From: Methanoculleus chikugoensis
GTDB lineage: Archaea > Halobacteriota > Methanomicrobia > Methanomicrobiales > Methanoculleaceae
DNA: 64,000 nucleotides
Assembly: GCF_019669965.1 (NCBI RefSeq)
Contig: NZ_AP019781.1
Span: 62,001-126,000 of the forward strand
Direction of reading: 5' to 3'
Shown: positions 22,756 through 25,453 of the stretch, in pieces
How the letters are laid out: every line of letters begins with the position of its first letter
How positions within the stretch are numbered: position 1 is the stretch's first letter
The notes under the pieces: model-generated
Told to the model about the DNA's origin: nothing
What the model saw: the letters and a program-made list of their open reading frames with translations, nothing else
Databases searched by the model: none
Made by a program: the position numbers and the translations under genes

Positions 22756-24039
22756 ATGTGGATCGGGATCGACGATACGGACTCGCCTGCCGGGATGTGT
22801 ACCACCTACCTCGGCGCGGTGCTGGTGCAACGGCTCGCGCGGAAGGGGCTGCGCATCGTCGGCACCCGCCTGGTCAGGCTGAACCCGAACGTCATCCACA
22901 AGACCCGGGGGAATGCGGCAATCGCCATCGAGGCGGGCGGCGATCCGGAGACGGCCTTCGCACTCGCCACCGCGTGCGTCGAAGAACTCGCGGAGTTCGA
23001 CGACGAAAAGACCAACCCCGGCGTGGTGGTGGCGAGCATCCGCCCGCCGCCGGAGTTCTACTACGCGGCGCTCCGGGACTACTGCACCGTGGACGAGGCG
23101 GTCGCGGTGCTCGAAGCGGCAGGGGCGCTATACCGGGGCTACAAGAACCGGCGCGGGCTCATCGGCGCAACGGCAGCAATAGCAAGCGATTTTCTCGACC
23201 TGACCTACGAACTCCTCGCCTACCGGAAGCGTCCGGCATGGGGAACGCCCCGGCAGGTGGATGCGGCGAGCCTCTTTCGCGCCGAGGAGGAGACCTACCC
23301 CCATACCTGGGACACGGTCGACCGGGAGAACGGCGTGGTGGTCGGGGTGCCCCATACCCCCGACCCCGTCCTCTTCGGCATCCGGGGGGAGAGCCCGGCA
23401 TGGGTGAGGGAGGCGCGTGCATATGTGCGCTCGGAAGAGCCCGCCTGTGAGCAGGTCTACGCCACCAACCAGGGAACCGACGCTCACCTGATCCCGGGCT
23501 CGATCGCAACGCTCCGGGAGGGGCGGTCATATCTGGTGCGGGGCACGGTCGCAGAGGCCGCGGCCACCGGGCCCGGCGGCCACGTCTCGTTTCTCCTCGA
23601 GGACTGCGGCGTCGACCTCCGCTGTATGGCCTACGAGCCGACCAAGGGGTTCCGGGACGTCGTGAGAGCGCTCGTCCCGGGCGACGTAGTGGCCGCGGCC
23701 GGGAGTTACAAAGGCGGGAGCCTCAACCTCGAGAAACTCGGGATCGCCCGCCTCGCCGACGCGGCCCGGATCCGCCCGCCGATCTGCCCGGCCTGCGGGA
23801 AGCGGATGACGAGCGCCGGAACCGGCAAGGGCTACAAGTGCAGGGTCTGCGGCGAGCGCAGCCGCAAGCCCGAGACCGAGCGAATCGAGCGGCAGATCGA
23901 GCCCGGGTGGTACGAGGTGCCCCCCACTGCCCGCCGGCACCTCGCGCGGCCGCTGGTTCGCGGCGTCCCGGTGTGGGAAGAGAACGTGCTTCAATCCGGC
24001 CGGGAGTGCGATCCATCGTCCATCGCGTCAATCGAATGA
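22756..24039 (+). CDS. tiaS: tRNA(Ile2) 2-agmatinylcytidine synthetase TiaS
   Basis: A 427-residue enzyme that attaches agmatine to C34 of the tRNA-Ile with CAU anticodon, so that it reads AUA. It begins MWIGIDDTDSPAGMCTTYLG (the DDTDS motif) and has KTRGNAA and the FLDLTYELLAYR block. An OB-fold domain follows (about 250-335), and the protein ends with a zinc ribbon with paired cysteines (CPACGKRM and CRVCGERS). The order and length match known TiaS. It is transcribed divergently from the HTH regulator. The enzyme is essential in archaea that decode AUA this way. Confidence 0.95.
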   Translation: MWIGIDDTDSPAGMCTTYLGAVLVQRLARKGLRIVGTRLVRLNPNVIHKTRGNAAIAIEAGGDPETAFALATACVEELAEFDDEKTNPGVVVASIRPPPEFYYAALRDYCTVDEAVAVLEAAGALYRGYKNRRGLIGATAAIASDFLDLTYELLAYRKRPAWGTPRQVDAASLFRAEEETYPHTWDTVDRENGVVVGVPHTPDPVLFGIRGESPAWVREARAYVRSEEPACEQVYATNQGTDAHLIPGSIATLREGRSYLVRGTVAEAAATGPGGHVSFLLEDCGVDLRCMAYEPTKGFRDVVRALVPGDVVAAAGSYKGGSLNLEKLGIARLADAARIRPPICPACGKRMTSAGTGKGYKCRVCGERSRKPETERIERQIEPGWYEVPPTARRHLARPLVRGVPVWEENVLQSGRECDPSSIASIE

Positions 24040-24052
24040 AGTTTACAAAAAA

Positions 24053-24416
24053 ATATTTATAACCTTTGTGAGTTAACTTGATCTCTGGTGATCCCGTGCC
24101 GACTATCTGCGGCGAAAGTATGCCTGCCCGGACCGGTCCGCCCGCATCGGTGCCACCCCTGACGGGCGGGGTTCTGCGGCAGGCCATACGAGTTCGCGGC
24201 CGAGTATGCACGGAACGAAAACGAAGGCGACCCTCTGGACACCTTTCCGTTTCCGGCCCGAAAGTCCGCTCTCTCGAGAGATGGTCCGGGCATACCGGAC
24301 CCCGACACGGTGGGACGAGTGGGATCATCCCGTGTCGAATAACCAGTCATCCCCTGTCTGGCAGCGGGGACCCGGCCACCGGGCCCCCGCAACATTGCTA
24401 TTTTTAGCAGAACTTA
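24053..24416 (+). ncRNA. Candidate structured RNA or long structured leader upstream of dys
   Basis: A TATA box (ATATTTATAACC, about 24053-24064) is followed by a series of strong hairpins. The first is a nested stem: TATG-CCTGCC near 24119-24128 with GGCAGG-C-CATA at 24178-24188, enclosing CCGCCCG/CGGGCGG (24138-24144 with 24163-24169). Next are GGTCCGG/CCGGACC (24283-24301) and CGACACGG/CCGTGTCG (24303-24337). Last is a 12-bp hairpin with one mismatch and a CCA loop (24364-24390), followed by T5 at 24411-24415. It resembles neither RNase P nor SRP RNA. Open frames here are Arg/Pro/Gly-rich and unconvincing. It could be a free RNA or an attenuating leader for dys-pyrF. Confidence 0.4.
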
Positions 24417-24517
24417 CGTTTCAGCCGACGGGCACTTCCCGGCGGCCCCGGGAAAAGACGATCCATTATCATGCATGAATGCCAATAACCTCGTACAGAA
24501 GCTGGTGTAACAGTATC

Positions 24518-25453
24518 ATGACCTTCAAGTACGGGGAAGCGGTTCAGCAGGCACGGGTGCACCCCGGGATGACGGTCGGCGAACTCGTCGACGAACTCGG
24601 GAAAGCCGGAGCCTACAACGGGGGATCGCTGTGGCAGGCGGTCAACATCTACGAACGGATGCTCCGCGACGAGAAAGCACTGAAGTTCTTCGGCCTCTCG
24701 GGCGCCATGGTGCCCGGCGGCATGGGAGGCATCGTCGCCGACCTTATCGAGAGAGGACACATCGACGTGCTCGTCTCGACGGGGGCGAACCTCACCCACG
24801 ACGTCATCGAGGCGATCGGGTGCCACCACTACCACGGGACTTGCCAGGTCTCCGATACCGAACTCTGTGAGGAGGGTGTCAACCGGATCTACGACATCTT
24901 CCTCCCGAACGAGGCGTTCATCCGGTTCGAGGAGTTCCTGCAGGACGTCTACTCCTCCATCCCGGAAGGCTCGACGGTCTCGATCTCCGATCTCCTTGGC
25001 CGGATCGGGGAGAAGCTCGATACCGGGATCCTCTCCGAGGCGGCAAAGGCCGGGGTGCCGATCTACTGCCCGGCCATCCAGGACTCGATGATCGGGCTGC
25101 AGTACTGGCTCTTTTCCCAGACACACAAGGTCACGGTCAGCGCGTTTGCCGATATGCCCGGGCTGCTCGACCGGTGCTTCGAGGCCGAGCGGGCCGGCAC
25201 CATCCTCGTCGGCGGCGGCGTCCCGAAGAACTACATCCTGCAGAGCAAACTGATGACCGAGAGCGGGTTCGACTACGCGGTGCAGCTCACCGGCGACCGG
25301 CCGGACCTCGGCGGCCTCTCGGGGGCGACGCTCGACGAGGCCCGGTCGTGGGGCAAACTCACCGGGGAGGCCACCGCCGCGACGGTCTACGGTGATGCGA
25401 CGATCAACCTGCCGCTCCTCGTCGCGGCAACCCTGGAAAGGCTGGAACGATGA
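24518..25453 (+). CDS. dys: Deoxyhypusine synthase
   Basis: A 311-residue enzyme that uses spermidine and NAD to make deoxyhypusine on initiation factor aIF-5A. Hallmarks are GMTVGELVDELGKAGAYNGG at the start, GAMVPGGMGG, STGANLTHD, HYHGTCQVSD, VGGGVPKN, the catalytic-lysine motif SWGKL near residue 283 and GDATINLPLL. ATG 24518 fits the family start and has GGTG ten bases upstream; an in-frame ATG at 24479 would add 13 unlike residues. The stop overlaps pyrF by 4 nt. A long, hairpin-rich stretch lies upstream. Confidence 0.95.
   Translation: MTFKYGEAVQQARVHPGMTVGELVDELGKAGAYNGGSLWQAVNIYERMLRDEKALKFFGLSGAMVPGGMGGIVADLIERGHIDVLVSTGANLTHDVIEAIGCHHYHGTCQVSDTELCEEGVNRIYDIFLPNEAFIRFEEFLQDVYSSIPEGSTVSISDLLGRIGEKLDTGILSEAAKAGVPIYCPAIQDSMIGLQYWLFSQTHKVTVSAFADMPGLLDRCFEAERAGTILVGGGVPKNYILQSKLMTESGFDYAVQLTGDRPDLGGLSGATLDEARSWGKLTGEATAATVYGDATINLPLLVAATLERLER

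Follow-up and report, generated by a model that had tools for sequence, protein, structure and literature searches.

To our knowledge, few structured non-coding RNAs of archaea have been described besides the universal ones. For methanogens, the comparison systems are the regulatory sRNAs sRNA154 and sRNA162 of Methanosarcina, and in bacteria OLE and similar classes represent large structured non-coding RNAs of unknown function. Here we report on a locus of Methanoculleus, a major methanogen in biogas plants for which we came across no published RNA of this type. It lies in a stretch of 64,000 nucleotides of Methanoculleus chikugoensis DNA that was analysed as a whole (hereafter, the window), and the host genome is complete, with a size of 2.62 Mb. 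An earlier note on this DNA had pointed to an unassigned structured RNA or an attenuating leader upstream of dys-pyrF. Comparative sequence analysis indicates, with a probability that we put at about 0.85, that positions 24042-24405 are the gene, present once in the genome, of a free-standing structured non-coding RNA of approximately 320 nt, equipped with its own promoter and T-run.

The RNA represents a new family of a known broad kind, that of the free-standing structured non-coding RNAs. None of the 4227 Rfam families matches the window at or above its gathering cut-off. The sole loose match in the window, at 16.8 bits, is attributable to chance, and the same scan of the relatives returned nothing up to E=2. 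No description of the RNA was found in open-licence papers, including the structured-RNA survey PMC2864571. As for the archaeal RNase P RNA (RF00373), it is also a euryarchaeal, multi-helix RNA of about 300 nt, and the stretch GAAAGUCC is found in both. The genome has its own RNase P RNA copy elsewhere (211.8 bits), and the family gives no match at the locus. Kinship via GAAAGUCC was rejected because this stretch of the new RNA is not conserved in its distant copies, which sets it apart from RNase P RNA. The archaeal SRP (7S) RNA (RF01857), another GC-rich, stable RNA of about 300 nt, is likewise encoded elsewhere in the genome (177.7 bits) and does not match the locus.

A conserved unit between tiaS and dys

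The unit forms an island that is conserved separately from its surroundings, between a gene that we take to be tiaS-like and the gene that the earlier note named dys, for deoxyhypusine synthase (Table 1). We aligned 32 oriented full copies from Methanoculleus, and two further sequences come from a second genus. In the Methanoculleus copies, the unit reads as a BRE/TATA promoter, a multi-helix body of about 320 nt and a T-run. Conservation drops at both of its borders: the mean column identity over the 32 copies is 0.97 in the 5' GGUGAUCCCGUGCCGAC, 0.97 in P5 and 0.94 in P6, and it is 0.66 in the 3' end of tiaS and 0.54, the lowest value, in the spacer after the T-run. The promoter (17 of 22 columns invariant and a mean column identity of 0.95 in the 32 genomes) and the terminator (a run of at least four T in all 32) are conserved together with the RNA body. 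The 18-mer core of the promoter occurs once in the genome, even if two mismatches are allowed. Both the TATA-like box and the T5 run ten bases past the GC-rich hairpin had been noticed before and are indeed present. We infer that transcription of the RNA is driven by its own promoter, just past the tiaS stop codon, and finishes at its own T-run before dys, with ends close to those listed in Table 1. The GTTAAC palindrome, which is replaced by ATTAAC in two Methanoculleus copies and is not kept in the second genus, is a possible initiator or regulator site.

Table 1. Features of the RNA locus and its neighbours, in window coordinates
Feature	Position	Strand	Remarks
tiaS-like gene, upstream (presumed name)	22756-24039	+	Syntenic in both genera, same strand as the RNA
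Putative promoter of the RNA: A-rich BRE-like stretch and TATA box TATTTATAA (24054-24062)	24042-24063	+	Immediately 3' of the tiaS stop codon
GTTAAC element, between TATA box and inferred start	24072-24077	+	In nearly all Methanoculleus copies
Structured non-coding RNA, ~320 nt	24083-24405	+	5' end inferred from TATA position, 3' end from T-run
P1 5' strand GGUGAUCCCG (candidate)	24087-24096	+	Pairs with P5 loop 24320-24329
P2 domain, with closing helix CCGUGC/GCACGG (24094-24099 with 24208-24213) and variable nested stems within	24094-24213	+	
P3 helix GGAC/GUCC, weakly supported	24237-24267	+	83.6% of cells paired, two-sided changes at one pair
P4 hairpin GGUCCGG/CCGGACC, 7 bp	24283-24301	+	94% of cells paired
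P5 hairpin CGACACGG/CCGUGUCG, 8 bp, long conserved loop	24303-24337	+	100% of cells paired
P1 3' strand YGGGAUC(AU or GC)C, inside P5 loop (candidate)	24320-24329	+	With P5, candidate pseudoknot
P6 hairpin CCAGUC[AUCCCCU]GUCUGG, exposed C-rich loop 24349-24355	24343-24361	+	Same loop in all 32 Methanoculleus copies
P7 GC-rich hairpin near the 3' end	24364-24390	+	Two-sided changes at 6 of 11 pairs
T5 run, inferred archaeal terminator	24401-24405	+	T-run of at least 4 T in 32 of 32 genomes
dys upstream element GACGATCCATTATCATGCATGA	24457-24478	+	With small changes also in G012, which lost the RNA
dys (deoxyhypusine synthase, as named in the earlier note), downstream	24518-25453	+	

Blastn searches over the body recovered the RNA from 34 of 35 Methanoculleus species genomes, and a covariance model of the 3' core (R1) scored 93-139 bits in 33 of the 35. 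In one genome, G016, a contig end falls inside the RNA. In a collection of 84,980 genomes, the exact core pattern is present in 25 contigs, each of them named as Methanoculleus or as an unclassified Methanomicrobiales/Euryarchaeota bin; M. chikugoensis, M. sediminis and Ca. M. thermohydrogenotrophicum are among them. As for the 35th genome (G012, locus L104), the blastn match is confined to the dys end. It displays a clean loss of the RNA, with a tiaS-dys spacer of 184 nt and with tiaS, dys and the dys upstream element kept. This natural deletion can be used as a control.

Homologues were also identified in another genus of the same family. Model R1 matched one of its genomes (G096) at 28.1 bits, with an E value of 0.004 for one genome, which is weak over 232 genomes; the second-genus matches (28.1 and 21.4 bits) being weak alone, their assignment rests on synteny and motif match. 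The homologue is located directly downstream of tiaS in G096, and the sister genome G097 is arranged alike. Both keep the 5' GGUGAUCCC, the P5 hairpin and, right before a T-run of T6-T8, the loop AUC(C/U)CCU. In this genus, P7 is missing and P6 itself, with AUCCCCU or AUCUCCU as its loop, precedes the T-run. P5 reads CGGUGCGG/CCGUGCCG, in which one compensatory A-U to G-C exchange and two wobble changes leave all pairs intact. A second model, R2, was built including both sequences, and the strong scores that it gives them are not independent.

We found no copy of the RNA in the genera g2 and g3 of the family, and covariance model searches, at the sensitivity used, detected no homologues in the rest of the order, class or phylum sample. 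Weak matches outside the family (G215, G212, G198 and G247) were dismissed as chance, as on reading they were judged to be protein-coding sequence. One g3 locus (L107) has about 708 nt between tiaS and dys, with no match to the RNA model in them. In seven genomes of the order's other families (L109, L110, L111, L113, L114, L115 and L118), a spacer of 32-107 nt separates the adjacent tiaS and dys, and the RNA is absent. Given this linkage outside the family, it is probable that tiaS and dys were linked ancestrally and that the RNA came to lie between them later, either by arising there or by insertion.

Structure of the RNA body

The region 24053-24416 folds with an energy of -155.9 kcal/mol (z = -4.3), better than any of 100 dinucleotide shuffles. 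The mean z value of 15 homologues is -2.8, compared with +0.1 and -0.7 in flanking control stretches. The antisense sequences reach a mean z of -2.6, so that energy alone is uninformative on the strand. Wobble pairs are more telling: the alignment contains 218 G-U cells against 127 A-C cells, which argues that the RNA is read from the + strand, in agreement with the promoter and the T-run.

The body appears to consist of a large 5' hairpin domain, the three hairpins P4 to P6 and a GC hairpin on the 3' side. In the Methanoculleus alignment, 91.1% of the cells of a 77-pair structure are paired, and 56 cells show two-sided changes compared with 27.8 in shuffles, a control that leaves relatedness in; no shuffle reaches the pairing percentage, the two-sided count or the covariation score. 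When the structure is slid by 1-3 columns, only 30-46% is paired, although this control, which keeps relatedness too, is one that a sequence-derived structure tends to outscore. The stems are conserved among relatives, and their pairs covary beyond both the shuffled and the slid controls. Covariation best supports the closing helix of P2, parts of the P2 domain, P5 and P7. The P2 closing helix is paired in 100% of the 32 sequences, with one-sided (wobble) changes, and the inner P2 helices vary on both sides. The alignment of the P2 domain is poor in parts, and helices 5 and 6 of the counted structure have just 73-81% of their cells paired. A further pairing, between 24265-24271 and GAGUGGG of the P5 loop, scores well in Methanoculleus and is not clear in the second genus.

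The elements described in the earlier note all reappear in this structure. We place its nested stems at 24118-24189, and its two perfect hairpins, GGTCCGG/CCGGACC (7 bp) and CGACACGG/CCGTGTCG (8 bp), correspond to P4 and P5. Its 12-bp GC-rich hairpin is present as P7, but with 11 positions and one A.C mismatch. The conserved P6 hairpin with its AUCCCCU loop, as well as a possible long-range pairing between the 5' end and the P5 loop, had been overlooked.

This long-range pairing, P1, involves the 5' GGUGAUCCC, which is found in almost all Methanoculleus copies and in both second-genus copies, two Methanoculleus copies having GAUGAUCCC in its place. It is complementary to the end of the P5 loop, GGGAUCAUC in Methanoculleus and GGGAUCGCC in the second genus. 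The comparison is suggestive of a pseudoknot, in which the 5' GGUGAUCCC would pair with the P5 loop and close the RNA. The first seven pairs of P1 are kept in 32 of 32 sequences of the Methanoculleus alignment, and only one of its pairs varies within this genus. At its second pair, most Methanoculleus copies have G-U and two have A-U, where the second genus has G-C; at the third, U-A and U-G both occur, and every variant pairs. Single-sequence folding yields a pairing probability of 0.94-0.99 for P1 in five divergent homologues and prefers P5 over P1 in many other copies. Nested folding cannot display the two together, but a pseudoknot could accommodate both. Three bases are shared by P1 and the closing helix of P2, which hence would not both be fully formed at the same time. 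In two divergent species (L041 and L043), a 6-8 nt insertion lengthens the 5' domain, alongside the replacement of GGUGAUCCC by GAUGAUCCC.

A free-standing RNA rather than a leader or a gene for a small protein

Comparison between genomes establishes the unit, its boundaries, its helices, its strand preference, its non-coding status and its independence from dys, as far as sequences can tell. The free non-coding RNA put forward in the earlier note is thus well supported, since 34 of 35 Methanoculleus genomes and the second genus have promoter, body and T-run conserved together and show covariation. The same note had also envisaged a cis-acting leader of dys-pyrF, in which the RNA would sense a signal and the 3' hairpin and T-run would cause or relieve premature termination before dys. 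The dys gene does follow on the same strand in 33 of 34 Methanoculleus loci (in the remaining one the contig ends earlier), a T-run does come after a structured body, and both neighbours are linked, by name, to polyamine chemistry: TiaS uses agmatine and deoxyhypusine synthase uses spermidine. Nevertheless, we regard such a leader as very improbable. The RNA and dys are separated, in the second genus, by an opposite-strand GNAT-type ORF, with dys more than 1.2 kb away from tiaS, and G012 has retained dys 184 nt after tiaS, with the same upstream element, in spite of having lost the RNA; the RNA is therefore presumably free-standing and not a dys attenuator. Furthermore, its distance to dys, counted from the 3' end of P5, ranges from 153 to 374 nt, the spacer past the T-run is the least conserved part of the region, and no conserved terminator/antiterminator pair with P7 was seen. 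As for alternative foldings, P1 and P5 compete in nested folding only, and the strands of P7 are not involved in the counted alternatives.

A gene for a small protein starting at the GUG after GGUGAUCCC is the least probable of all readings that we considered. The arrangement GGUG-AUCCC-GUG has an SD-like spacing, and the frame is open for about 100 codons in the window. However, 95 of the 110 indel runs between the relatives and the window copy are not multiples of three, and the region is accordingly non-coding. No frame is open across species, and open lengths vary from one species to another. The earlier note had seen no credible protein there either. The tiaS-dys spacer is neither empty nor a dys leader, and its annotation should be corrected accordingly.

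Possible function

The free-standing RNA most likely acts in trans, either through conserved hairpin loops that it exposes or as a scaffold for protein. The C-rich loop of P6 and the G-rich loop of P5 would be offered for contact with a partner, RNA or protein. A trans regulator or a protein scaffold fits an RNA that is lineage-restricted, dispensable (having been lost once) and single-copy, and whose exposed loops are near-invariant. We consider a base-pairing regulator, at slightly less than even odds, somewhat likelier than a ribonucleoprotein scaffold. Each genome contains 18-21 occurrences of the complement of the P6 loop region (CAGGGGATGA), apparently more than of the reversed control. 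The 30 loci that we read are mostly inside coding sequence, often at Q-G-M codons, and this search yielded no convincing mRNA target. The scaffold reading, tentative but to be taken seriously, would make the molecule a structural or housekeeping RNA of a ribonucleoprotein, 6S-like or otherwise protein-bound, that does not base-pair with mRNAs. Its large size, its many helices, its single copy, the candidate pseudoknot closing the molecule and the near-invariance of P5 all speak for such a role, whereas its presence in two genera only, at the sensitivity used, and its absence from G012 are unlike a housekeeping RNA.

We deem it unlikely that this RNA of only two genera, Methanoculleus and the second one of the family, forms the pseudoknotted core of an archaeal ribonucleoprotein yet to be described, or that it is catalytic or directed at ribosomes. 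Quite improbable, in our view, is a mimic of SD and anti-SD sequences on ribosomes, with the 5' GGUGAUCC pairing with the 3' end of 16S rRNA and the P5 loop GGGAUCAUC resembling that end. GGUGAUCC does fit the archaeal SD core, and GGAUCA fits the 16S tail, which we take to be GGAUCACCUCC. However, two species have GAUGAUCC, which pairs less well with 16S rRNA but keeps the pairing with the RNA's own loop, and the internal helix therefore explains the conservation of the 5' end better than 16S pairing would. Whichever role is considered, the RNA has defined boundaries, a promoter, 32+2 sequences and one natural loss in G012, which makes expression, deletion and partner experiments direct.

Among the known systems, the Methanosarcina sRNA154 and sRNA162 share with the new RNA an intergenic location, an own promoter, stem-loops with exposed loops and a lineage-restricted distribution. 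Unlike them, it is larger, has a candidate pseudoknot, occurs in another group of organisms and has no Rfam match to described families. The OLE-type RNAs differ from it in that they are bacterial, and it is shorter and limited to two genera. Like those RNAs when they were first discovered, it is a long, complex and conserved molecule that came to light ahead of any partner.
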